64,000 nucleotides of DNA from Corynebacterium sp. (GTDB lineage Bacteria; Actinomycetota; Actinomycetes; Mycobacteriales; Mycobacteriaceae), in contig NZ_JALAGY010000076.1 of assembly GCF_022712195.1 (NCBI RefSeq), positions 55,477-119,476 of the forward strand. The letters run 5' to 3'. The translations under genes were made by a program, and so were the position numbers. Numbering within the stretch: the stretch's first letter is position 1; the number at the start of each line of letters is the position of its first letter. Below are positions 1 to 55,235 of this stretch, piece by piece. A model generated the notes under the pieces. The model was not told the DNA's origin. It was given only the letters and a program-made list of their open reading frames with translations, and searched no databases.

Positions 1-137
1 GCCTTGACCTTCCCGTCGATGTCGCAGGTGAGGCAGCGCCAGTGCCACGTCTCGACGCCGTTGGTGTCGTAGGTGGCGTGCCCGGTGGTGTACCGGCCGC
101 AGCCGGGGCAGTTCTTCTGGTGGTGGTGGTTGCTCAC
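1..137 (-). CDS. Small zinc-ribbon phage protein (partial, runs off the left edge)
   Basis: The visible 45 residues start at a GTG (137-135) whose last two bases fall in the TGA of the upstream gene, a GTGA overlap typical of this operon. The N-terminus is His-rich (SNHHHQKN) and is followed by CPGCGR and then a CLTC pair about 28 residues later, which is the CxxC...CxxC spacing of a zinc ribbon. Function is unknown. Such small zinc-ribbon proteins are common in phage early regions, but I cannot name a family. The C-terminus lies outside the window. Confidence 0.6.
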   Translation of the reverse strand, partial: MSNHHHQKNCPGCGRYTTGHATYDTNGVETWHWRCLTCDIDGKVK

Positions 138-613
138 GGGTGTCTCGCTTTCTCGAGGGCGTAGTCCACGGCCTCGCGGTAGGTGTCGAACAGATCGCCG
201 TCGCAGTGGTCGTCGTCGGGGACGGACCACCAGAGGCCGGAGTATTCGCCTCGGAAGACGAGCCATCCGGCGGGGACGCCGAGTATGATGTTCAGGAAGT
301 TCTTCGGGGGGTCGGCCGGGTGCAGCGTGATGGTCGTCTCGTAGGTGTCGGCGACGTCGATCGTCGGGGCGTCGCGCCATAGCTTCGAGGGGTCGGGTAC
401 GTCGGGCTCGACGGGGACGCCGTCGGGGTCCAGGCGCCCGAGCTGGCGGAAGTCGCTGCGGTCGGCGCTGCCGGCCGGGGCCACGAAGACATCGCCGAGG
501 ACCGGCCCGAGTCGTCGTCCGTCGTCGTAGACCGTGCGGGCGGTGGCGTGCCGGAGGGCGTCGTGGGCGCCGAGAACGGCGTCGGTCAGTCCAGGGCGCA
601 GGTGAGGGGTCAC
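134..613 (-). CDS. Hypothetical phage early protein, 159 aa
   Basis: I do not recognise this protein. It has 159 residues, is acidic and soluble, and shows no signal peptide or membrane segment. The C-terminal part reads like a compact alpha/beta domain, with a hydrophobic stretch FLNIILGVPAGWLVF near residues 105-120 followed by an acidic DDDHCDGDLFDTYREAV segment. Its ATG overlaps the stop of the RusA gene (ATGA at 613-610) and its stop overlaps the start of the zinc-ribbon gene, so it is translationally coupled on both sides. That makes it a real gene of the early operon rather than a chance frame. Confidence 0.6.
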   Translation of the reverse strand: MTPHLRPGLTDAVLGAHDALRHATARTVYDDGRRLGPVLGDVFVAPAGSADRSDFRQLGRLDPDGVPVEPDVPDPSKLWRDAPTIDVADTYETTITLHPADPPKNFLNIILGVPAGWLVFRGEYSGLWWSVPDDDHCDGDLFDTYREAVDYALEKARHP

Positions 614-993
614 AGGTCCACTCCCCTCTCGTCGCTGATGACCAGCCAGAGAGCGGCCGGCCCCTGTGTGTCCTTCGGGTGGATCCGCGGCATGAGCTTG
701 GTCATGTACTCGCTGGTGTCGTCGGCGACGACCCCTGCATCGACCAGGCCGTCCCAGAGCGGTTTCGCCGTGGCGAGCAGGTTGTCCTCGTCGCGGCGGC
801 GGCCGTCCGGTGCGACGTAGTGCAGCCGGGTGGTGATGTGCTCCAGGCCCTGCGGGATCCCCATGGAGCGGGCCCGCTGGTGGGCCTCAGCGCGCAGACC
901 GTAGCGGTGCGGTTGTGCCTTCGCCCAGTGTCCGCGGTCGTTGAGCGACAGCGGGGGTTTGTCGTAGGACAGCGGCATCGTCCAGGTCGTCAT
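610..993 (-). CDS. rusA: RusA-family Holliday junction resolvase
   Basis: RusA proteins are small dimeric nucleases that cut Holliday junctions and resolve branched DNA in phage recombination and packaging. The 127-residue product has the family hallmarks: an N-terminal PLSLNDRGHW segment that matches the usual PxSxNxRxHW signature, and a central DEDNLLATAKPLWDGLVDAG block containing the catalytic Asp residues and the conserved Lys, followed by DD. The ATG at 993 is chosen because it overlaps the upstream stop (ATGA). The longer reading frame upstream has arginine-rich, shadow-like composition. Its position beside YqaJ and SSB fits a recombination module. Confidence 0.85.
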   Translation of the reverse strand: MTTWTMPLSYDKPPLSLNDRGHWAKAQPHRYGLRAEAHQRARSMGIPQGLEHITTRLHYVAPDGRRRDEDNLLATAKPLWDGLVDAGVVADDTSEYMTKLMPRIHPKDTQGPAALWLVISDERGVDL

Positions 994-1247
994 GCTGACC
1001 ACCGCTTCGCCAGGTGCCGGCGGGCCACGACCTGGGCGTAGAGCATGGCGTCGGAGTAATTGCCCATCGCTGCGCACATGACCTCCTTCCCCGGTTCGTA
1101 CACCGTCCAGGCCAGGCGGTATTCATCCGAGGGCTTCCCGAACATGCCGGTGAACCTGGCGTGCACGGGCACCTGGATGACTTCCCTGCGCACTCGGGAC
1201 TTCTTGCTGGGCGGTTTGTCCTGGAAGAACATGTCTCCGAAGGTCAT
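990..1247 (-). CDS. Hypothetical phage early protein, 85 aa
   Basis: This is an 85-residue orphan of unknown function. It is basic at the N-terminus (KPPSKKSRVRRE) and ends in an amphipathic helix, AMLYAQVVARRHLAKRW. There is no Cys cluster, signal peptide or membrane segment. Start and stop both overlap neighbouring genes by four bases (ATGA at 1247 and 993), so it is translated as part of the chain between the HTH protein and RusA. A DNA-binding accessory role is possible from its charge, but that is a guess. Confidence 0.6.
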   Translation of the reverse strand: MTFGDMFFQDKPPSKKSRVRREVIQVPVHARFTGMFGKPSDEYRLAWTVYEPGKEVMCAAMGNYSDAMLYAQVVARRHLAKRWSA

Positions 1248-2266
1248 GCGCTACCTCTCATCGGCTCGTTGGGGTCATGGTCGATCGCCGGCATCAAGTG
1301 CTTGCCGTCGAAGCGCACGGTTCGGTTCTCACGGCGTCTGCGCCACGCCTGTAGCGCCGGAGACGGCCCGGCGGGCTCGTCTGCAGGGTCGTGGTCGGAT
1401 TCGGTCTCTGAGGCGGCGAGAGCGGCGCTCACGGCCTCGGCGAGTGCGTGCTCGTCGTGTGGGCAGCGCATCAGACCGGCATCGGACGTCGCCATGCCGT
1501 TGTCGTCGCACAGGGCGCAGGCGTCACGCTCGGCACGACGACGCTCCTCGGCTTCGGCGGCGCGGCGGCGGTTGTCGTCCCGGACTGCCTCGGCGGTGTG
1601 CCGGGTGGTCGCACAGCCTCGGCACGGCGGCGGGGTGTCGACTCCGGCGTGGGCCGCGCAGCGGGCCCGCCTCGGGTCAGCGATCCACTCGGCGGGGATG
1701 TCGGGGGGTGGGGTCGATTCGCTCGCGGGCGCTCCAGACCGTAACGATCCCTCCCCCGTCTTCCCCTCCCCTTCTCTGGATGGTTCTAGGGATGGTTCTA
1801 GGGATGGTTCTAGGGATGGTTTGTCGGAAACCCCCTTCCGGCCTGACTGCTCAGATTTTCCGGTCTGGATGTCAGAATCTTCCGGTCTGGATGCTGAGTT
1901 CTTCCGCCCTGGTGCAAAACTTTCCGCCCTGGATTTCGTCGCCAGGGAGGAAGGTTTTGCAGGCTCTTCGTCGGCTCTACAGACGGTCAGATCGATGTCC
2001 CAGACGACAGGTCGGTATCGCGGATCGAGGTGCCCGACGATGCGCTGGTCGCCTCGGCGGATGACTCCGCGGCTCTCCATGCTCTGCAGGTGTGTCCGGA
2101 CGGTCCGGGTCGAGCACCGGGCCCGGTACGCGATCCAGGCTTGGGATGGCCAGGCGCACGTGCCGTCGTCGTGGGCGCGGTCGGCCAAGGCGTAGAGCAC
2201 GGCGAGTTCGCCGTGGTTCTTCACGTCGGCGTTCTCCATGACCCAGGTCGTGACCTTGAGGCTCAT
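1244..2266 (-). CDS. HTH phage replication-type protein
   Basis: The product has 340 residues. Residues about 1-95 form a winged-helix domain of the kind found in phage replication initiators, where HGELAVLYALADRAHDDGTCAWPSQAWIA leads into the recognition region CSTRTVRTHLQSMESRGVI. This is followed by a long polar linker with SLEP repeats and a C-terminal half rich in charged residues with CAAH...CRGC and CALCDDNG...CPHDEH pairs, which suggest one or two zinc sites. The ATG at 2266 is preceded by AAAGGAGG at 9-base spacing, and it overlaps the stop of the upstream 67-aa gene. Replication initiation is inferred from domain type and position between SSB and RusA; a transcription factor remains possible. 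Confidence 0.65.
   Translation of the reverse strand: MSLKVTTWVMENADVKNHGELAVLYALADRAHDDGTCAWPSQAWIAYRARCSTRTVRTHLQSMESRGVIRRGDQRIVGHLDPRYRPVVWDIDLTVCRADEEPAKPSSLATKSRAESFAPGRKNSASRPEDSDIQTGKSEQSGRKGVSDKPSLEPSLEPSLEPSREGEGKTGEGSLRSGAPASESTPPPDIPAEWIADPRRARCAAHAGVDTPPPCRGCATTRHTAEAVRDDNRRRAAEAEERRRAERDACALCDDNGMATSDAGLMRCPHDEHALAEAVSAALAASETESDHDPADEPAGPSPALQAWRRRRENRTVRFDGKHLMPAIDHDPNEPMRGSA
1778..1822 (-). repeat. In-frame 12-bp tandem repeat (about 3.7 copies)
   Basis: The unit ggatggttctag occurs three times in perfect register (1778, 1790, 1802) with a degenerate fourth copy. Read on the minus strand it encodes SLEP repeated (SLEPSLEPSLEPS) in the linker of the HTH protein. Being a multiple of three, copy-number changes would only lengthen or shorten the linker. 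Confidence 0.9.
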
Positions 2267-2466
2267 GTCGAGGTACCTCCTTTCGTGAGTGTCGTGAGGA
2301 TGGTGGATATCGCGGTAGCGGACGTCCTGGTGAGGACCAGGGGCCGGCCGCGCTGGCAGGTGGGGCATCCGAACCAGGCGGCGACGTCACGCGGGGTGAA
2401 CTCGCGCTGGTGCCGGTGCGGGTGCCGTCGCCCGTCATGGACGGGGCGGGAGATTATGCGCGCCAT
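2263..2466 (-). CDS. Small phage protein, 67 aa, single CxxC
   Basis: The 67-residue product has a basic, His-rich N-terminus and a WFGCPTCQRGRPL segment (about 31-43) that could be one half of a zinc knuckle. No second Cys pair is present, so a zinc site would need His ligands or dimerisation. It starts three bases after the SSB stop, and its stop overlaps the ATG of the HTH gene; the ribosome-binding site of that HTH gene lies inside this frame. Conserved placement in the chain argues that it is real. Function unknown. Confidence 0.55.
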   Translation of the reverse strand: MARIISRPVHDGRRHPHRHQREFTPRDVAAWFGCPTCQRGRPLVLTRTSATAISTILTTLTKGGTST

Positions 2467-2469
2467 GTC

Positions 2470-3030
2470 TCAAAAAGGCGGGTCTTCGCCGCCGTCGAAG
2501 CCGCTCCCCTGCGGTGGTGCGGAGTTCCACGGGTCGTCGTCCGGGGCGTTCTGATTGCCGAAACCGCCCTGCTGACCACCCGGCGCGCCGTTGTTCTGGT
2601 TGTTTCGGTGGTTGCTGGCCTGATTGCTCTGGTTGTGGCCCTGACCTGCGAAGTTGTTATTTCGGGGGTTCTTTTCGGTGAGGCAGGTGGCATATCGGAG
2701 TGAGGGGCCGACCTCGTCGACCTGGACCTCGAAGACGGTGCGTTTCTCGCCTTCGCGGGTGTCGTAGGAGCGCTGGCGCAGTCGGCCGGTGACGATGACG
2801 CGGTCTCCCTTGGTGAGGGAGTTGGCGACGTTCTCGGCGGCGGCGCGCCAGATGTTGCAGGCGAGGAAGAGTGCTTCGCCGTCGACCCACTGGTTGGTGT
2901 GGGAGTCGAACCGGCGCGGCGTGGAGGCGACGCGGAAGTTCGCCACGGCGGCGCCGGACGGGGTGTAGCGCAACTCCGGGTCGTCGACGAGGTTGCCGAC
3001 GAGGGTGATGGGTGTGTCTCCCTGTGCCAT
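2470..3030 (-). CDS. ssb: Single-stranded DNA-binding protein (phage)
   Basis: The 186-residue product has an OB fold at about residues 5-115, beginning [19 protein letters not shown] and containing the [10 protein letters not shown] strand and the [15 protein letters not shown] hairpin. A disordered Gln/Asn/Gly-rich linker follows, and the protein ends in the acidic tip EDPPF, the docking peptide for recombination and repair partners. It coats single strands during replication and recombination. It sits one base downstream of the YqaJ gene, so nuclease and SSB are made together. It is a phage copy; the host should carry its own ssb elsewhere. Confidence 0.95.
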
Positions 3031-3031
3031 G

Positions 3032-3814
3032 TCAGACCCCCTCGCGCAGGAGGATGGTGGCGAGGTTGCCGTCGATGCGCTCGGCGAGGGCGTCCAGCTC
3101 GACGCCGGGGTCGTAGTGCTCGTCGGAGGTGGTGCGGGTCTCCTGGACGATGTCCCAGAGGTGCGCGCAGGTGGTGACGATCAGCTCCCAAGCGTCATTG
3201 CTCCAGGCGACCCGGGAGATCTCCGGGACTCCCCAGCGGCTGGCCGGTGTGCGGACGACCCAGCCGAGCGGGGACCCGATGACACCCATCTGGGTCAGCA
3301 CCTGGGCGGCGTCGGCGACCGGGATGCCGGGCCCGTCGGCGGCGGGAACGAGGAGCCCCAGGAGCGGGCCGGTCTTGGCCTCGACGATGTGGCAGGCGCG
3401 GGGGTCGTCGGAGAATACGCGGTTGTCGGGCCCGTGGGGTCTCGGCGCCCGCGGGCGGAACACCGCGTCCGGGGTGACGACGTGCGGGAAATGCAGCGAC
3501 TCGAGCTGCGGGTTTCGGTAGCACGACTGCTCCTCGAAGTAGCCGTCATCGTGCCCGGTCTTCCCCGCCCAGTACTCGACAAGGGCGCCCTCAGCGGCGT
3601 GTCCCCACCGGAACCGGCTGGCGGCTTCCCCGGCGGGCCTCGGGGAGTCGCGCGGGTCGATCAGGTGGTCGTAGACGTCGTGGAGGGTGCGCCCGTGCGG
3701 GTCGACGCCCATGATCGCGGGGATCTTGCTGGCGGAGATGTAGGAGTCGTGCTCGGCGGTGCCCGGCCGGGGCGGGCACCTGAGCAGCTCGGAGGTGCGT
3801 GTGGGGGCGGTCAT
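3032..3814 (-). CDS. YqaJ-type phage recombinase exonuclease
   Basis: YqaJ proteins are lambda-exonuclease-like members of the PD-(D/E)XK superfamily. They chew dsDNA ends to give 3' single strands for annealing. The 260-residue product shows [11 protein letters not shown] near the start, the helix [13 protein letters not shown] (family GHxxE), then TPDAVF (catalytic Asp) and HIVEAKTG, which supplies the ExK. The ATG at 3814 has AGGAG seven bases upstream and overlaps the stop of the preceding gene. The longer upstream frame is Arg/Pro-rich shadow sequence. No RecT, Erf or Rad52-like annealase is recognisable next to it; the adjacent SSB or an orphan may serve. Confidence 0.85.
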
Positions 3815-4023
3815 GTTCTTCTCCTGAAGTTCGTGAGGATCGTCCGGCCGGTCGGGGTCGGTGCCCAGCCGGACGAGTGCGGTGCGCCGGACCACCGGAT
3901 CAGCCCGGCGGCGGCGAGGACCTTCGCCCCATCGGAGGCGGTGCGGTCCTGGGCGGTGATGGAGGTGATGCCGTCGGCGAGGTGGGTGAGGTACTCGCGG
4001 TACTGGTCGGAGTCGTCGCTCAC
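3811..4023 (-). CDS. Hypothetical phage early protein, 70 aa
   Basis: The 70-residue product starts at a GTG (4023) that overlaps the upstream TGA (GTGA); an ATG at 4050 would overlap the neighbour by 31 bases and is less likely. Residues 10-65 read like a small winged helix: an N-terminal helix YREYLTHLADGIT, then SDGAKVLAAAGLIRW and a GWAPTPTGRTIL wing-like strand. Its stop overlaps the YqaJ ATG, so it is coupled to the nuclease. Function unknown. Confidence 0.55.
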   Translation of the reverse strand: MSDDSDQYREYLTHLADGITSITAQDRTASDGAKVLAAAGLIRWSGAPHSSGWAPTPTGRTILTNFRRRT

Positions 4024-4241
4024 CCCATGTGCTCCCGGTTTGCCGCCCACTGGGTCTCGATGTGACTGGCGACCCGGTGCCCGAGCTCGGTCGGACGGCC
4101 ACGGGAATCCACGAGACCGCGCGCCTGCAACCCGATCGCCGTCGACCCCCTCGCACGAGTGCCGTGGTCGGCGTTGACGAGAGCCTGCTGGGCCGTCGGC
4201 GACGGCGGGACGAATTCTGCGTAGTTCGGCGTGGTGCTCAT
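4020..4241 (-). CDS. Hypothetical phage early protein, 73 aa
   Basis: The 73-residue product starts at the ATG 4241, which overlaps the upstream stop. The sequence STAIGLQARGLVDSRGRPTELGHRVA resembles the end of a small winged-helix or HTH fold, similar in flavour to the gene that follows, so the two may be related partners. There are no catalytic motifs. Both ends are translationally coupled to their neighbours. Function unknown. Confidence 0.55.
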   Translation of the reverse strand: MSTTPNYAEFVPPSPTAQQALVNADHGTRARGSTAIGLQARGLVDSRGRPTELGHRVASHIETQWAANREHMG

Positions 4242-4573
4242 ACGATTCCCTTCATCTTCGGCCAGTGCTTGTGCCTGGCCTTGGGGTTGTCGAGGACGTG
4301 CTGCGCGATGGCGGCGTGCTCCGGACAGAAACAGAACCCCCGCCCCGGGCTCAGGTGATGCCCCGGCTCGTGACAGCCGAAGTACGCACACGTGCCGTCG
4401 GAGGTGCTGATGTACTCGGCGCGCCGGGTGAGTGCCTGCCGGACGGTGCCGCGGAGGCGGTCGGCCTCGCTCATGGCCTCGTCCCAGGTGTTCTGGTTGG
4501 TCGCTCCCCAGGGGCTGACGACCTGCCACTGGCCTGTGATGCGGTTGCGCTTGACGTTGACGTAGCCGCTCAT
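4238..4573 (-). CDS. Cys/His-rich hypothetical phage protein, 111 aa
   Basis: The product has an N-terminal beta-like segment (VNVKRNRITGQWQVVSPWG) and a C-terminal half with CAYFGCHEPGHH followed by FCFCPEHAAIAQH, a ligand set consistent with a treble-clef or other zinc-binding fold. No nuclease signature (HNH) is complete. It is coupled to both neighbours through four-base overlaps. I do not recognise the family; DNA binding or a structural role are both possible. Confidence 0.55.
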   Translation of the reverse strand: MSGYVNVKRNRITGQWQVVSPWGATNQNTWDEAMSEADRLRGTVRQALTRRAEYISTSDGTCAYFGCHEPGHHLSPGRGFCFCPEHAAIAQHVLDNPKARHKHWPKMKGIV

Positions 4574-4875
4574 GCGACGGCCCCGGCGCGTGGTGCGGTG
4601 TAGAGCTGGCGGCCGGTGGTGACGTCGACGTAGCCGACGAGTCCGAGGGCGACGACGAGGGTGTCGAGTTTCGCGACGGTGATGCGTCGGCGCTTGCCGG
4701 TGGCGAGGTTGCGGAGGGTGTCTGGGTCGATGCGGAGGATGGCTCCGAGCTCGCTCCAGGTGGCGTGTCCAATGTCGTGGCGTCGGGCGAGCAGGCTGTC
4801 CATGCGGGAGCGGATCTCGTCGACGACGATGGGCGGGGCGGGCACGGCGGGGTTGTCTCGGGTGGGGATGCTCAT
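4570..4875 (-). CDS. Small HTH protein of the phage early operon
   Basis: The 101-residue product has a central helix-turn-helix-like region at about residues 40-85 (TWSELGAILRIDPDTLRNLATGKRRRI, then KLDTLVVALGL), resembling the XRE/Cro fold, plus a C-terminal strand ending in RQLYTAP. The ATG at 4875 overlaps the stop of the membrane-protein gene; the ORF extension upstream is Arg/His-rich and probably untranslated in this frame. It may regulate the early operon. Its targets are unknown. Confidence 0.65.
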   Translation of the reverse strand: MSIPTRDNPAVPAPPIVVDEIRSRMDSLLARRHDIGHATWSELGAILRIDPDTLRNLATGKRRRITVAKLDTLVVALGLVGYVDVTTGRQLYTAPRAGAVA

Positions 4876-5111
4876 GGGCGGTCGACCAGCCCGACGATGA
4901 TGACGGCGGCCAGGGCGGCGACGCCGGTGATGCCGACCCAGCCCCAGGCCTGCCACGCCTGGGCGATGATCAGTCCGGCGAATCCCCCGCCGAGGATGGC
5001 GGCGACGATCCAGGCGATGTGTGCCTCGATGTAGCGGCCGAGGGGTTCGTGGACCCGGTCGCCGTCGCCGCGGCGGACGATGGCGTCGAGGAGGTCGTTA
5101 TGCGGTCGCAT
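4872..5111 (-). CDS. Small two-helix membrane protein of the phage
   Basis: The 79-residue product has a soluble N-terminus of about 30 residues followed by two hydrophobic helices (about 32-52 and 57-75) separated by a short AWGWVG turn, so both termini should lie on the same side of the membrane. GGAGG lies six bases upstream of the ATG, a clear ribosome-binding site that supports 5111 as the start. It overlaps the XRE gene upstream by 14 bases. Small membrane proteins in lysogeny/early regions sometimes block superinfection, but nothing here proves that. Confidence 0.65.
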   Translation of the reverse strand: MRPHNDLLDAIVRRGDGDRVHEPLGRYIEAHIAWIVAAILGGGFAGLIIAQAWQAWGWVGITGVAALAAVIIVGLVDRP

Positions 5112-5451
5112 GCGACACCTCCGTGACTCGCACCTTTTCCCCCGGCTCGTACAGGACCGTGCTCGCGCGAAGGTCGGCGCGGACGTAGGTGCGACCGTGG
5201 TATTCCAGGGCCGGCGGGGTCGGCATGATGTCCTCCCCGCGGTTGAGCTTGGCGATCAGGTCGGCGAGGTCGACGCGCAGGGCGGCGGCCCAGAGTGCGA
5301 TCGCGTTGAAGCGGGCCTTCGAGGCGTCGGCCTCCATCTCGGACAGGGACGAGCTCGAGCACATCGCTTCGGTGGCGACGATGCTCTGGGACAGTCCCTT
5401 CTGCTTGCGGATGTAGGCGAGGTACTGCCCGATCTTCTGTGCGTGGTTCAT
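5098..5451 (-). CDS. XRE-family HTH transcriptional regulator (phage)
   Basis: The 117-residue product has a canonical XRE helix-turn-helix at residues 5-62 (QYLAYIRKQKGLSQSIVATEAMC, then SSLSEMEADASKARFN, then ALRVDLADLI). A short C-terminal beta extension ends VRVTEVSHATA. The start at 5451 overlaps the stop of the excisionase-like gene (ATGA), and the long upstream extension of the frame is Arg/Pro-rich. It is the second gene of the leftward operon, a position typical of early regulators. Confidence 0.8.
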   Translation of the reverse strand: MNHAQKIGQYLAYIRKQKGLSQSIVATEAMCSSSSLSEMEADASKARFNAIALWAAALRVDLADLIAKLNRGEDIMPTPPALEYHGRTYVRADLRASTVLYEPGEKVRVTEVSHATA

Positions 5452-5705
5452 GCTGCTGCCTCCGGCTGCTCGGCGGTGCGGGTGGCGGCCTCGTCGCGTT
5501 CGTTGAGGAGTTCGGTGGCCTCTGCGCGGGTGATTCCGCAGGCGGTGAGGACCTTGTTTGTCTGTACGCGGGGTTTGCGGCCGTCCTTGCGTCCTCCGAA
5601 GTCGTCGCGGCCTTCGCGGATCTGTTGGTATAGCGTGGACTCCGGGATGGTCAGCAGGTAGGCGGCGTCGGGGACCGACATCATGGCGGTTATCGTGGTA
5701 GCCAC
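5448..5705 (-). CDS. Excisionase-like (HTH_17/MerR-type) DNA-binding protein
   Basis: The 85-residue product begins at GTG 5705, with AAAGGAG eight bases upstream. The region MSVPDAAYLLTIPESTLYQQI followed by GRDDFGGRKDGRKPRVQTNKVL fits the winged-helix pattern of excisionases, in which a helix-turn-helix is followed by a basic wing. It is the first gene of the leftward operon. In temperate phages such proteins bend DNA at attP and tip integrase toward excision, or act as early regulators. The role is inferred from fold and position. Confidence 0.65.
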   Translation of the reverse strand: MATTITAMMSVPDAAYLLTIPESTLYQQIREGRDDFGGRKDGRKPRVQTNKVLTACGITRAEATELLNERDEAATRTAEQPEAAA

Positions 5706-5974
5706 AGCCTCTGCTCCTTTCGTGGGTGGTGGGGGTTGGTGGCACCGCCGACGCGAACACGGTCCTGGCAGACTGCGTCGGCGGTGCTGGTTTGTACGGG
5801 GACGGGGCGCAGCGGTCTCCTCTCGGGAAAACTTCCGGTCCTGGGGCGCACAGCCGGGGTGATGGATCGACACCCCTTCGTTGGCTACGGCGACGACTCT
5901 GCGTGGCAGGTGTCAGACGCTTTCGACGTAGGAGCAATGCTGGACCCCTGGCGTTAGTACGCCCCGTCCCCTGT

Positions 5975-6024
5975 GCCCTACCCCGGTCATGAGCCGGTCC
6001 CCGGACTACTCCGGGCAGTAGGGC
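5975..6024 (-). other. Palindromic multi-hairpin RNA element
   Basis: An outer stem gccctac/gtagggc (5975-5981 with 6018-6024) encloses two internal hairpins, cccgga-ctac-tccggg and ccgg-tcatga-gccgg, giving a compact three-way-junction-like fold of 50 bases. The stems are self-complementary, so the fold is possible on both strands. There is no following U-run, so it is not a simple intrinsic terminator. Confidence 0.45.
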
Positions 6025-6040
6025 GAAAGGTTGGGTCTTA

Positions 6041-6066
6041 CTTGCACTATTGAGTTCTCAAACAGC
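6041..6066 (-). promoter_or_regulatory. rRNA-leader/boxA-like antitermination motif
   Basis: On the minus strand the sequence reads GCTGTTTGAGAACTCAATAG followed by TGCAAG. From memory, the string TTTGAGAACTCAATAG is the conserved pre-23S/leader motif of actinobacterial rRNA operons and includes a boxA-like core. The inner TTGAG-AA-CTCAA can form a small hairpin. Here it sits in a phage leader with no rRNA nearby, ahead of a long early operon where antitermination would be useful. It may recruit host NusB/NusE-type factors. Confidence 0.5.
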
Positions 6067-6083
6067 GAGGACACGTGTGGTCC

Positions 6084-6152
6084 TGGTACCCGGTGAGGGA
6101 TCTGCACCCTCCCGGCGGATTGCTGAGTCCGTCGGGCACTGCGCTTCCGGGT
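6084..6152 (-). tRNA. Degenerate tRNA-like element (possible phage tRNA, CAG-like loop)
   Basis: The acceptor strands ACCCGGA and ACCGGGT pair at six of seven positions and are followed by discriminator A and an encoded CCA (6087-6084). A T-arm of five perfect pairs (GAGGG/CCCTC) closes a seven-base loop TGCAGAT, which departs from the universal TTC. An anticodon-like hairpin CGGA-CTCAGCAA-TCCG has eight loop bases with CAG after T33. The D-arm is shortened and lacks the usual GG. It is therefore either a decayed tRNA or a tRNA mimic. It may not be charged. Confidence 0.35.
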
Positions 6153-6190
6153 GTGCCCCTGCCCGCTTCCCCACGGACAGGGACGAGGGG

Positions 6191-6433
6191 TCAGACGGCG
6201 ATGGAGTCTGGTGCGGCCTCTTCGAGCCACGGGCCCAGGGCCGTGTCGTGGCCCATGAGGTCCGCGATGTGCAGCCGCATCGGGTCACCGACGAGTGCGC
6301 CGTGCCGCAGGGCCCCGAGGTCCTCGGTGCTGATCCACAGCGCGGCGGCCAGCTGCCGCTCGGTGCGCAGATTCCGGGCCCGGGCGATGTCGTCGAGGGC
6401 TCCGTCGCGGAACCGGTAGAGGTGCTGATCCAT
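6191..6433 (-). CDS. Cro-like HTH protein (first leftward gene opposite the repressor)
   Basis: The 80-residue product starts at ATG 6433 with AAAGGGGGAG just upstream. Residues about 15-62 read as a helix-turn-helix (ARNLRTERQLAAALWISTEDL, GALRHGALVGDPMRLHIADL) similar in layout to Cro/XRE repressors. It lies divergent to the immunity repressor across a 168-base switch region, which is where a Cro-type antagonist is expected. A frame extending to 6793 would overlap the repressor and is not credible. Confidence 0.65.
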   Translation of the reverse strand: MDQHLYRFRDGALDDIARARNLRTERQLAAALWISTEDLGALRHGALVGDPMRLHIADLMGHDTALGPWLEEAAPDSIAV

Positions 6434-6499
6434 GTCTCCCCCTTTCCGTGGCATAGGAGTCCTGGTGCAGGTCGGTGGCGTTTTGCCTCCGCTGGTTGA

Positions 6500-6529
6500 A
6501 CAATGCCATGCGTTGGTGGCAGATGTCAA
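6500..6529 (-). promoter_or_regulatory. Leftward early promoter (PL-like)
   Basis: A perfect TTGACA -35 (6529-6524 on the minus strand) is followed after 18 bases by CATTGT (6505-6500) as a weak -10. The TGCCA-N8-TGGCA inverted repeat fills the spacer, so repressor binding would block polymerase directly. It would drive the Cro-like gene, the structured leader and the recombination operon. Confidence 0.55.
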
Positions 6530-6565
6530 CCTCGTAATCACAACATGGGGATTCGATGGCACGTA

Positions 6566-6594
6566 TTGCCTAGTCATGGCATATATGGCAAAAT
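6566..6594 (+). promoter_or_regulatory. Repressor promoter, predicted leaderless transcript
   Basis: TTGCCT (6566-6571) and CAAAAT (6589-6594) are separated by 17 bases. The expected start point falls at about 6601-6602, which is the ATG of the repressor, and no Shine-Dalgarno sequence precedes that ATG. A leaderless repressor mRNA is common for phage lysogeny promoters. TGGCA half-sites at 6577 and 6586 overlap this promoter, which suggests autoregulation. Confidence 0.45.
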
Positions 6595-6601
6595 GCAACT
6601 C

Positions 6602-7135
6602 ATGGATTACAGAGCATGGATCGCGTCCCTTCCCGGCGCGCCGACGCAGACCGAGGCGGCCGAGGCGGCGTCTGTCGACAAGAGCACGCTGTCCCGTCAA
6701 CTGAAGCGGGGTGCGCTGTCCATGGAGGTCGTCTCCGCCCTGGCTCGCGCGCACGGGGTGAAGCCTGCGGACGCACTCGTGCAGACCGGGCACCTGGACG
6801 CCGAGGACGTCGAGGGCGTCGGTGTCGTTGAAGCGCTGAAGTATGCGACGAATCGGCAGCTGTTCGACGAGATCGAGCGTCGTAGCGACATGGAGTCGAC
6901 GACCCTGTTCGGCAAGGGGCCCGGGGTGATCAATCCCCGCCCGGCGCTCGGCGTCGTCCCGCCGGCCTCAGATACCCCCGACGGTGTTTCCGGTGAGCAG
7001 GATAAACCTGAGAACGACACCCCCAGTGTCCATAGTGACCGGCATGATCTAGATGAGGTGCTCCGTAAGGCGAATCAGCTGAAGGGAGCAGCTCAACGCC
7101 GAACCCCACGAATCGAGGAGCCTGAAAACCCCTAA
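6602..7135 (+). CDS. Phage immunity repressor (XRE-type HTH)
   Basis: The 177-residue product has an N-terminal helix-turn-helix at about residues 12-58 (PTQTEAAEAASVDKSTLSRQL, then KRGALSMEVVSALARAHGV), a helical middle and a long polar C-terminal tail. There is no S24 LexA-type protease domain, so induction probably does not go through RecA self-cleavage. The following gene is an ImmA/IrrE metalloprotease, a known alternative in which the protease inactivates the repressor. The start at ATG 6602 fits a leaderless transcript; an ATG at 6593 is the alternative. Confidence 0.8.
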   Translation: MDYRAWIASLPGAPTQTEAAEAASVDKSTLSRQLKRGALSMEVVSALARAHGVKPADALVQTGHLDAEDVEGVGVVEALKYATNRQLFDEIERRSDMESTTLFGKGPGVINPRPALGVVPPASDTPDGVSGEQDKPENDTPSVHSDRHDLDEVLRKANQLKGAAQRRTPRIEEPENP

Positions 7136-7138
7136 CTC

Positions 7139-7519
7139 ATGAAGAAGTTGAAGGCCAAGGCCAAGGAGCTCGGAGTGACGATCTACGAGACCAACGAGCT
7201 CCGCGGCGACCTGAACGCGATCTACATGCACGATGACCGGGTCATCCTCCTGCGAGACGACCTCGACCCCTACACGAAGCGATCCGCCCTGGCGCACGAG
7301 CTCGGGCACGCGAAGTACGGGGACGAGCACTCGGATGATCCGCGCCTGGAACGACGCGCAGACCTCTGGGCCGCACAGCTCGTCATCAGCGAGCCGGCCT
7401 ACAAGGAAGCCGAGCAAGACTACGGGCCCCACCCCGGCGCGCTGGCGTGGGCCCTCGGCGTCACCCGCGACGTCGTCGAAACCTGGCGCACACTGACACT
7501 CAAGAGAAGAGAATCCTGA
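7139..7519 (+). CDS. immA: ImmA/IrrE-family metallopeptidase
   Basis: The 126-residue product carries the zinc-protease motif HELGH at residues 53-57, with the downstream ligand helix LERRADLWAAQLVI (E71/D75). In Bacillus ICEBs1, ImmA cleaves its cognate HTH repressor ImmR to trigger excision. Here the gene begins three bases after the repressor stop, so the pair is very likely a repressor-antirepressor module. It is shorter than many IrrE proteins and has no extra sensor domain. The TGA overlaps the ATG of the lipoprotein gene. Confidence 0.9.
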   Translation: MKKLKAKAKELGVTIYETNELRGDLNAIYMHDDRVILLRDDLDPYTKRSALAHELGHAKYGDEHSDDPRLERRADLWAAQLVISEPAYKEAEQDYGPHPGALAWALGVTRDVVETWRTLTLKRRES

Positions 7520-8415
7520 TGAAGCTACGACGCAGCGCCGCAGCTATCGCGGCCGTCGCCACGCTCGCGCTCGCATCCTGCAGCAGCGACAGCGACGACA
7601 CGGCGGGGACGACTCCCCCAGCCACCGAGACCACCCAGGCCAACGACGCCGACGAGCTCCACGCCCTGGGCGACACCGTCACCATCGGAGACACCCTGAC
7701 GATCTCCGATGCAGAAGTCATCACCGACGGGTGCGAGTTCAGCGACACCCCCACCCGCGACGCGGTGAAGTTCCAGATCCTCGCCACCGTCGAGAACAAC
7801 ACCGGACAGGACATCGTCCAGGCCCTGTGGCCCTCCGACATCCGATTCACCGACCCCGACGGGCTGAGCGTGATCCCGAGGGACATCGCGGCCGGCGAAC
7901 CGCCATGCTCCAACGAGCACCCCACCGGATTCGTCGACCTCGCCGACGGCGAGACCCGGCGCGCAGCCGTGACTCTGGAGGCACCCGCTGGCGCGACGGA
8001 GATGGTCTACTCCACGGACATGATCGACGGCGCCGAGCCAGTCCGCTGGGACGTCTCCGAAGTGATCGAGGACCTGGAGGTAACCCCGTCCACCCCGGAG
8101 ACCCCGGCGCCGGATGCCGCAGAGGAGCCTGCAGCCGCCGAGCCCCTGGCGCGCGACTACCGCTGCCCGCAGACCGATAACTACGTCACCGACCCGTCAG
8201 AGTGCGAGACCCCCATAGCCGTCACGGACATCGCGCCGGACCCCGCCACGATCCCCTTCGCTGACGGCGGAACCTGCCCCGCCTACAAGTGCGGCTACGG
8301 CCACGACGAGAACGGCAACCCCAACCCCTCCAGTGGTGAGATCCAGGGCTGGTGGATGGACTGCATCGCGACGAACGACGAGGCCTACTGCCGCGAGAAC
8401 GACCCCTACACCTAG
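7519..8415 (+). CDS. Phage-encoded secreted lipoprotein, DUF4352-like
   Basis: The 298-residue product starts at ATG 7519, which shares a base with the ImmA stop. Residues 1-20 form a lipoprotein signal peptide ending in the lipobox LAS-C21, followed by a Ser/Thr/Asp-rich linker. Residues about 50-185 read as an Ig-like beta sandwich (GDTVTIGDTLTISDAEV, then VKFQILATVENNTGQDI), as in DUF4352 lipoproteins. The C-terminal part (about 210-298) is Cys-rich (YRCPQTDNYV, CPAYKCGYG, WMDCI, YCREND) and probably disulfide-bonded outside the membrane. Expressed from the lysogen with repressor and protease, it could be a superinfection-exclusion or host-surface factor; that is inference. Confidence 0.8.
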   Translation: MKLRRSAAAIAAVATLALASCSSDSDDTAGTTPPATETTQANDADELHALGDTVTIGDTLTISDAEVITDGCEFSDTPTRDAVKFQILATVENNTGQDIVQALWPSDIRFTDPDGLSVIPRDIAAGEPPCSNEHPTGFVDLADGETRRAAVTLEAPAGATEMVYSTDMIDGAEPVRWDVSEVIEDLEVTPSTPETPAPDAAEEPAAAEPLARDYRCPQTDNYVTDPSECETPIAVTDIAPDPATIPFADGGTCPAYKCGYGHDENGNPNPSSGEIQGWWMDCIATNDEAYCRENDPYT

Positions 8416-8505: not shown

Positions 8506-9735
8506 ATGAGTGTTCAGCGACGCCCGCCGACAGGAGTGAAGCTCAAGAAGGGACAGCGTCCCAAGTGGGTGGTTCGATACCGTCCCTATCCCGGGGCGAA
8601 GGAACGGAGCAAGACTTTCACCTACGACGAGTACGACCAGCCGGAGAAAGCGGCGAAAGATTTCGACGCGGATCAGCGCTCCAAGATCGCGCGGGGTGTC
8701 TGGGTCGATCCTGCTGATAAGCGGGTCACTGTCGGCGAGCTCACGCTCGAGTGGGTGGATATGGCGCGCACCGACGGGACCAAGAAGGTGCGGACGACGT
8801 TCTACAAGAATCTCGGCGACTTGTGTGACATGCCGATCGGCGCCGTGCGAACCTCGCACGTGAAGGAGTGGTTCCGGCAGATCCGCACCGGCAGGCCGTG
8901 GGCGAACGGCAGGCCCCTGGCGGACTCCACCGCGAGGCTTGCCCTGGGGCACCTTAAGGGGCTCTTCGCCCGGGCCGAGGAGGACAGGATGATCGAGCGG
9001 TCCCCCATCCCCTCGTCGCTCAAGAAGACCGAGATGCCCGACCCCAGGGTTGAGCCCCGGGCGGTCCCCAGCCCCGAGCTGGTCCGTCGGATGTGTGCCG
9101 CAGCCGAAGCCGGCGGCACGTTCAAGAAGCCGATCTACGACCAGAAGTCACTCCGCCCCTCCCCGTGGCTGGCGATGACCATACGCCTGGGCGCGGACAC
9201 CGGCCTCCGGGTCGGGGAGATCTCCGGCCTTCGATGGCGGGACGTGGACCTGGACGCCAAGATGCTGACCGTCGTCGAGCAGCGGACGGTGAACGCGCAG
9301 ACGCCCGTCGGGCTGAAGACGAAGCGGTCCTACCGACAGGTCCCGCTGTCGACCCTGATGGCGCGCGAACTCGCCAACTGGAAGGCCGACATCGCCCCTC
9401 TCCCCGAGGATCCTGTCGTTCCCGGCGCGAAGGGTGGCGGCACGTCTACTGCTTCCCTGACGCGGTACATGCGGCTCGTGGCACGGCTCCTGGACGTTCC
9501 TTCGTCGCAGACCCGGTTCCATGGTCTCCGACATCTGTACGCGTCGAGCATGCTGGCGGCCGGAGAGCCGGTGACGACGGTCGCCGCCTTCATCGGCGAC
9601 TCGGTGCAAACGACGAACCAGACCTACGCTCACTTCCTGCCAAGTGCAGGTGCCGCTGCCCGGGCGTCGCTGAATGCTCTTGCGGGAGCATTGCGGGATG
9701 ACGCCCCCGCACTGCGGGTGGTGGAGGGCTCCTGA
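8506..9735 (+). CDS. int: Phage integrase, tyrosine recombinase
   Basis: The 409-residue product starts at ATG 8506, with AGGAG nine bases upstream. It has an N-terminal arm-binding region (about 1-70), a SAM-like core-binding domain (about 75-165) and a catalytic domain (about 190-385). Catalytic residues visible are R235 in TGLRVGE, a Lys in LKTKRSY (about 273), HGLR (H339, R342) and the nucleophile Y374 in TYAHF. The usual LGH is IGD here, so the second histidine position carries Asp. Location at the host junction is typical. It integrates and, with an excisionase, excises the prophage. Confidence 0.95.
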   Translation: MSVQRRPPTGVKLKKGQRPKWVVRYRPYPGAKERSKTFTYDEYDQPEKAAKDFDADQRSKIARGVWVDPADKRVTVGELTLEWVDMARTDGTKKVRTTFYKNLGDLCDMPIGAVRTSHVKEWFRQIRTGRPWANGRPLADSTARLALGHLKGLFARAEEDRMIERSPIPSSLKKTEMPDPRVEPRAVPSPELVRRMCAAAEAGGTFKKPIYDQKSLRPSPWLAMTIRLGADTGLRVGEISGLRWRDVDLDAKMLTVVEQRTVNAQTPVGLKTKRSYRQVPLSTLMARELANWKADIAPLPEDPVVPGAKGGGTSTASLTRYMRLVARLLDVPSSQTRFHGLRHLYASSMLAAGEPVTTVAAFIGDSVQTTNQTYAHFLPSAGAAARASLNALAGALRDDAPALRVVEGS

Positions 9736-52837: not shown

Positions 52838-52850
52838 GATCGTGCTGTTG

Positions 52851-52923
52851 TACCCCGTACGGGATTTGAACCCGTGTTACCGGCGTGAGAGGCCAGCGTC
52901 CTAGGCCGCTAGACGAACGGGGC
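52851..52923 (-). tRNA. tRNA-Glu (CTC), copy 1
   Basis: 73 bases. The acceptor GCCCCGT/ACGGGGT, a D-arm with AGCGGCCTAGG, anticodon loop CTCTCAC with anticodon CTC closed by CTGGC/GCCGG, and T-loop TTCAAAT with stem ACGGG/CCCGT are all seen. CCA is not encoded. The sequence is identical to the copy at 55055-55127. Confidence 0.95.
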
Positions 52924-55038: not shown

Positions 55039-55054
55039 TCGTTCACATACCTTG

Positions 55055-55127
55055 TACCCCGTACGGGATTTGAACCCGTGTTACCGGCGTGAGAGGCCAG
55101 CGTCCTAGGCCGCTAGACGAACGGGGC
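55055..55127 (-). tRNA. tRNA-Glu (CTC), copy 2
   Basis: 73 bases, identical to the copy at 52851-52923, with the same cloverleaf and CTC anticodon. It lies 36 bases after tRNA-Gln and before its own terminator, so it is likely cotranscribed with tRNA-Gln and possibly gltX. Confidence 0.95.
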
Positions 55128-55163
55128 GTGAAAACATACTGCACATCATATCCAGCGTTTCCG

Positions 55164-55235
55164 CTGGCCTACCAGGACTCGAACCTAGAACGACGGTACC
55201 AGAAACCGCTGTGTTGCCAATTACACCATAGGCCA
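55164..55235 (-). tRNA. tRNA-Gln (CTG)
   Basis: 72 bases. The acceptor TGGCCTA/TAGGCCA with discriminator G, a D-arm with AATTGGCAA, anticodon loop TTCTGGT (anticodon CTG) closed by GCGGT/ACCGT, and a T-arm CTAGG-TTCGAGT-CCTGG are complete. CCA is not encoded. Position next to tRNA-Glu and gltX is apt, since the bacterial Gln-tRNA is commonly made by GltX plus GatCAB. Confidence 0.95.

Follow-up and report, generated by a model that had tools for sequence, protein, structure and literature searches.

The window, i.e., the whole analyzed stretch of 64,000 nucleotides from a Corynebacterium sp. contig (C62), harbors a prophage only in its left ~9.7 kb, and beyond the integrase it continues with chromosomal genes (trmD, rimM, ffh, and smc, assigned by eye). 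Leftward, the prophage goes on along the contig, reaching about 20 kb, its edges being approximate. On the plus strand lie a divergent repressor-like gene at 6602..7135 (phrog_16278 at 2.4e-26 and several repressor PHROGs, scanned as 6608-7132), a metalloprotease-like gene, and, close to the edge of the prophage, the integrase at 8506..9735 (phrog_1, 7e-49). The minus strand carries an ORF of 80 aa (6191..6433), termed cro-like from its position and size and from a counterpart seen by eye in a second prophage of the same genome; it had no PHROG or Pfam match. It is followed by an intercistronic region of 485 bases (5706..6190), a small ORF (5448..5705, likewise without PHROG or Pfam match, putatively excisionase-like), and the early operon (1..5451), which encodes a transcriptional regulator, a RecE-like exonuclease, an SSB, a replication initiator, and others and extends leftward in the contig, the genes from the intercistronic region on being mostly leftward. 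An earlier note, made from the letters of this DNA, had described the 485 bases as the untranslated leader of the operon. Untranslated they appear to be, as no gene is called in sense direction of 5706-6190 and stop codons break each of the three sense frames (6, 1, and 2 of them); a 5' leader they are not, since the cro-like ORF precedes them and they lie between genes one and two of the leftward operon. As side observations, a lipoprotein-like ORF (by eye; 7519-8415, plus strand), for which we can only guess at a possible exclusion gene expressed during lysogeny, lies between the metalloprotease-like gene and the integrase, and the chromosomal part of the window contains two tRNA-Glu(CTC) and one tRNA-Gln at 52850-52923, 55054-55127, and 55163-55235.

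The sense strand of the intercistronic region carries the 18-mer TGTTTGAGAACTCAATAG at 6047-6064 (minus strand; the 20-mer of the earlier note spans 6047-6066), 341 bases ahead of the next start. We take it to consist of a boxA (UGUUUGAGAACUC) and an overlapping boxC-like NusA site (GAACUCAAUAG). It is the single site of its kind in the window even when up to three mismatches are allowed; from composition alone 4e-8 exact matches are expected, and 100 dinucleotide shuffles of the window contained zero. Within the 2.84 Mb genome of the host, TTTGAGAACTCAAYAG occurs exactly at three sites, namely in the window and at one end each of contigs C36 and C90, the latter two adjoining apparent murA and tyrS genes (named by eye). 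No 16S was found in the host assembly (zero RF00177 matches). The terminal 35 bases of C36 from the motif onward are unchanged in the same-genus genome G003 (locus L088), with the 16S beginning 250 bases further on; thus, we interpret both contig ends as rrn leaders cut at a collapsed operon. The likeness to the actinobacterial rRNA-leader motif that had been proposed for the 26-base region was thereby confirmed in the host itself, with 18 of 18 bases identical in the two leaders compared. Also in line with the earlier note, the window is devoid of rRNA. With no rRNA downstream, the site is no rrn leader and at most works like one. The host genome encodes both NusA and NusB, and its NusA matches the structure chains 1k0r and 2asb/2atw, which we take to be M. 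tuberculosis NusA. The RNA crystallized in 2asb/2atw is presumably GAACUCAAUAG, which is contained in the window site.

Extension toward related genomes showed where this motif usually resides. In five same-genus genomes, the classified sites with up to two mismatches were rrn leaders, a variant ~2.0 kb downstream of them, prophages, and a CRISPR spacer; two sites in G191 and one in G028 were left unclassified. Among 11 loci from four of the same-genus genomes (L082-L092), a 16S start was located 244-320 bases downstream in seven, while two ended with their contig, one was the G028 prophage, and one (L086) had no 16S start; at a further locus (L044), the distance was 322 bases. L086 (position 1501, reverse strand, G028) displays a full-looking rrn leader without a 16S start in the following 1.5 kb, being either an orphan leader or an assembly gap. 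The variant TTTGAGAACTGTATAG appeared ~2.0 kb past nine exact sites (three in G028, five in G146, and one in G003) and is, judged by this distance, the 16S-23S spacer site. On class level, the exact 16-mer was present in 17 of 118 genomes (36 matches). Reading 28 further sites from this class yielded 18 with a 16S start 110-205 bases downstream and eight at contig ends, the remaining two (L105 and L121) containing masked bases. The backward control pattern of the two-mismatch search gave zero matches in all 17 genomes and records covered by that search, the five same-genus genomes among them.

The gene following the site (5448..5705) was searched in 242 same-genus genomes and found in four: the host, G028, G003, and G146. 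Its upstream boxA site is intact in the host and in the G028 prophage. The copy in G146 is a weak relative interrupted by a stop codon and has no site within 1.5 kb, but TTCGAGAACTCAATAG occurs 1.9 kb upstream of it. In a second prophage-like region of the host genome (C4), a cro-like ORF and a KilAC antirepressor come first, then the two hairpins described below and TTTGAGAACTCGATAG, followed by a tRNA-Leu gene plus an HTH_17-like one that scores below Pfam's cut-off. The viral contig L033 from IMG/VR contains, in this order, an AntA/KilAC antirepressor, the variant CTCGATAG as in C4, and an HTH_17-like gene, so that the order antirepressor/cro-like gene, boxA, small HTH gene recurs in both.

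Predicted hairpins precede the boxA in this prophage family. In the window, hairpin 1 (6112..6135, minus strand) shows two-sided, pair-keeping changes at three of its eight pairs across three prophages, with one pair broken in one sequence. Hairpin 2 (6095..6111, minus strand; GAGGG/CCCUC) has an invariant stem and a loop starting with UGCAG in all three. A possible hairpin 3 (6068..6084, minus strand; AGGAC/GUCCU) directly upstream of boxA is uncertain, and the consensus fold of the three prophages pairs this stretch otherwise. Comprising the window, C4, and G003 only, this comparison gives a hint that hairpins 1 and 2 may be conserved in the family. The fold of the 60 nt upstream of the window boxA did not surpass that of shuffles (z -1.0), and an Rfam search of 5700-6200 returned no match up to E 5. 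An exact search for the hairpin gave two viral matches, neither followed by a boxA. A gapped hairpin-boxA pattern retrieved five genome matches (one actinobacterial, Arcanobacterium phocae) and 22 viral ones; all 27 deviated from the 16-base site by at least four mismatches and were dismissed as chance. Just 3' of boxA (5975-6024, minus strand), the sequence can be drawn in a clover-like shape that is closed by a 7-bp stem (GCCCUAC/GUAGGGC) and bears two arms; by eye, this fold is readable in G003 too.

Next, 50,697 phage records were searched with N-padded 18-mers bearing either T or C at the variable position and requiring at least 16 exact letters. The T form matched 34 records (Mycobacterium 27, Streptomyces 6, and Nocardia 1) and the C form 96 (Streptomyces 94 and Gordonia 2). 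All of them (34/34 and 96/96) are actinophages; the counts are not independent, given that related records and some RefSeq/GenBank twins are included and the two sets may overlap. Among the matches listed (34 of 34 for T and 60 of 96 for C), 91 of 94 sites had no annotated feature underneath. We read 13 phages, self-chosen as differently named lineages: Refuge, Bongo, P3.1, MrMagoo, Manuel, Immanuel3, Lika, Bantam, Coruscant, Zuko, Gilson, Phlei (with one mismatch within the core), and FlowerPower. In all 13, the site and the gene after it point in one direction (p=1.2e-4); the Coruscant site lies within a hypothetical gene annotated in this same sense. In Bongo (L046, 3001-3041), the motif sits 21 bases before the tmRNA within a tRNA array, and a second copy with one mismatch is found near the genome end; Refuge, Manuel, and Immanuel3 (L045, L049, and L050) have a weaker second boxA ~280-405 bases from the first.

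A complementary search of IMG/VR delivered 19 viral contigs, compared with five matches for a reversed pattern and none for a scrambled core; taken alone, these matches are weak evidence. Three of the contigs carry the site as in the named phages Refuge, Immanuel3, and FlowerPower. Two others (L021 and L026) represent one AT-rich stretch, probably a chance match, and L034 resembles by eye an rrn leader near a contig end; these were set aside. L022, L023, L029, and L035 show, immediately 5' of boxA, tRNA-like fragments lacking an anticodon arm (seen by eye).

The variable base goes with the host genus. All 27 Mycobacterium records carry T, and 94 of the 100 Streptomyces records carry C (Fisher p 4e-22, a value inflated by related records). 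Correspondingly, the rrn leaders of genus g2 show T and those of g21 and of a named Streptomyces C (several one-mismatch sites left out). Genus g21 is Streptomyces, as its leader matches that of the named Streptomyces sp. BHT-5-2, in which a 16S start follows 203 bases downstream; g2, with no named match, we infer to be Mycobacterium. Regarding the distribution among other actinophages, which the earlier note had raised, the site is non-random: confined to actinophages within the phage records searched, almost exclusively outside of genes, in sense orientation in 13 of 13 phages read, and matched to the host at its variable base.

In a part of the leaders the likeness to host rrn exceeds the core. 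We compared 27 leaders with eight rrn references against 200 shuffles (Immanuel3 being entered by its weaker copy). Gilson matched the Streptomyces rrn leader over 55 bases upstream of boxA (z 7.5) and IMG/VR contig L024 over 69 bases (z 12.8), both with 0 of 200 shuffles reaching the score. The same held for G348_a (Streptomyces reference), Manuel (g4 reference), and vir27 (two Mycobacterium-type references); for Lika, two of 200 shuffles reached it. Zuko and the window showed nothing notable beyond the core against the eight references, and most other leaders little or nothing. With an extended Streptomyces query of 34 letters, 70 phage records were matched at E values between 4e-4 and the cut-off of 10, all Streptomyces among the 60 listed; plasmid matches numbered 16, of which 15 are Streptomyces. 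On a 36 kb Streptomyces plasmid (L189), it is found at 94% in the gap between divergent GntR and WhiB genes, with no 16S in 8 kb around the site. G348 has two sites without 16S (L140 and L150) beside regulator genes (GntR/UTRA by Pfam and XRE-like by eye), which may be integrated elements. Two small Arthrobacter/Pseudarthrobacter "plasmids" with the motif were excluded as rRNA, a 16S start following 180 bases on.

The proposed role of the signal in rRNA leaders is to keep RNA polymerase transcribing. Identity to the rrn leader, position, orientation, host matching, and the presence of NusA and NusB genes were directly observed, and on these grounds we consider the site likely to be a nut-like signal for antitermination that relies on host factors only. 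From a putative lytic promoter, located between repressor and cro-like ORF, polymerase would proceed leftward, first through this ORF and next across the untranslated gap. In the emerging transcript, boxA would be bound by NusB and NusE (S10) and the overlapping GAACUCAAUAG by NusA. Traveling with the polymerase as on rRNA, the Nus factors would confer resistance to termination, above all to the Rho-dependent type; the presumed hazard is Rho acting on the 485 untranslated bases and the long operon. In PMC6614801, rRNA boxA is described as binding NusB/NusE, boxA and NusB as necessary in vitro to counteract Rho, and boxC-like RNA as bound by M. tuberculosis NusA.

Several observations were counted against the nut-like reading. 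G003, the nearest relative (83% over the leader), has a degraded site, ATTGAGAACTGAACAG, although its variant ~2.0 kb downstream of the rrn leader likewise reads CTG. A scan of window positions 1-7200 detected no sigma-70-type promoter, and terminator-like hairpins on both strands of this region were in mild excess (7 vs 3.0 expected). Structure upstream of boxA in the compared phage leaders was not consistently better than shuffles, and a common fold in all phages was rejected as unsupported by this comparison. The T form occurs in 6 of 100 Streptomyces records. Finally, none of ten classic actinophages, self-chosen and not random (Bxb1, phiC31, TM4, Giles, Che8, BFK20, P1201, R4, VWB, and PA6), has a site with up to two mismatches, the only ones counted, as at three the backward control matches in 11 of 28 records. 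P1201 contains the 11-base TTTGAGAACTC (three mismatches over 16), TM4 contains three 3-mismatch sites, and the right 3.1 kb of D29 are free of the site. The boxA site is a trait of a subset of actinophages and not universal.

With the rrn leaders and spacers of actinobacteria the window site shares 18 identical bases of boxA/boxC, an untranslated setting, and a host having NusA and NusB genes; it differs by preceding a phage protein operon with no rRNA downstream and by lacking rrn-like sequence upstream of boxA. The layout resembles that of phage lambda, where PR is followed by cro and nutR: the window boxA comes after the first lytic (cro-like) ORF, beside a divergent repressor and ahead of the early operon, with putative hairpins nearby, nutR/nutL having a hairpin as well. 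In contrast to lambda, the boxA is of the host rRNA type with a fused boxC, and the hairpins precede it, as in E. coli rrn. Lambda nut works with the N protein; none of 10 scanned prophage proteins had an N-like PHROG match, a scan by which short, divergent N proteins could be missed. The put RNA of HK022 is similar in that antitermination is proposed to proceed without a phage protein; it differs in acting directly on the polymerase, and we claim no sequence likeness to the window site.

Besides borrowing of the rRNA antitermination machinery, titration of it had been suggested in the earlier note, i.e., abundant leader RNA would soak up NusB, S10, or NusA, thereby lowering rRNA synthesis and freeing polymerase for the phage. 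Such a decoy would fit the exact host match and the second site with up to two mismatches in 5 of 12 whole phage records, whereas the other seven have a single site, all 13 phages read have it co-directional with the next gene, and on the Streptomyces plasmid, where it lies between divergent regulators, an rRNA shutdown has no obvious use. We regard it as quite unlikely and, based on position and orientation, favor borrowing. Still less expected is a role in processing or stability, with the site pairing or being cleaved as in rRNA leaders (RNase III, tRNA-type) to mature the early mRNA. The flanks differ among the phages, only the boxA/boxC letters being common apart from the longer Streptomyces copies, and the flanking fold is inconsistent; such a role could nevertheless account for the tRNA-like pieces or real tRNA/tmRNA genes beside some sites, and rRNA boxC is also part of a processing duplex according to PMC6614801.

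Even lower we rank repression or attenuation of the next gene through boxA. The precedent is E. coli suhB, which, as CRISPR arrays do, has an rRNA-type boxA outside of rRNA, and which is repressed; the survey that includes it covered gamma-proteobacteria and selected sites at most 50 bases from a start codon (PMC5725501). Zuko, with its site 10 bases ahead of a CDS, would agree with this, but the window site is a distal one that precedes an operon, and in 10 of 13 phages read the next annotated gene starts 119-483 bases away (eight of those having no annotated gene between the site and the genome end). Least probable is that a regulator binds the site as a palindrome in DNA (TTGAGAACTCAA). Although its core is a near-perfect inverted repeat, the common letters extend unevenly, with one or two T at one end and YAGTG at the other, and all 13 phages read have the site in a fixed strand orientation toward the next gene.

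Returning to host-served antitermination, a wider version is conceivable, which we hold at somewhat below even confidence: mobile elements of actinobacteria at large (temperate and lytic phages, plasmids, and integrated elements) might repeatedly have acquired the host-matched rrn site, turning their early operons into "pseudo-rRNA operons" independent of an N-type protein, and the hairpins might add a phage-specific factor in the prophage family of the window. The N/nut paradigm stems from enterobacterial phages and, to our knowledge, little is known about polymerase processivity through long early operons in phages of high-GC Gram-positive hosts. Literature searches covering titles and abstract starts of part of the results revealed no description of an rrn-type boxA in actinophages, and an earlier one may exist. 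With the host-matched, rRNA-type site occurring in many actinophages that are unrelated, a mechanism of antitermination without a phage protein becomes directly testable. Furthermore, the site may serve as a marker of early-operon starts in unannotated gaps, and the phage sites provide a natural variant set for studies of NusB/NusE/NusA recognition.

In G191, a CRISPR array with 49 repeat copies in 3 kb (L043, 1464-1525, reverse strand) includes a 33-base spacer in which the boxA motif plus TGCATAG is contained. No exact source was found in viral contigs, for which a 26-base part was searched. Past the motif the spacer differs from the rrn leaders of G191 itself; its best match is the leader of the G028 prophage (28 of 33 bases), perhaps pointing to immunity aimed at the phage copy of a host signal.
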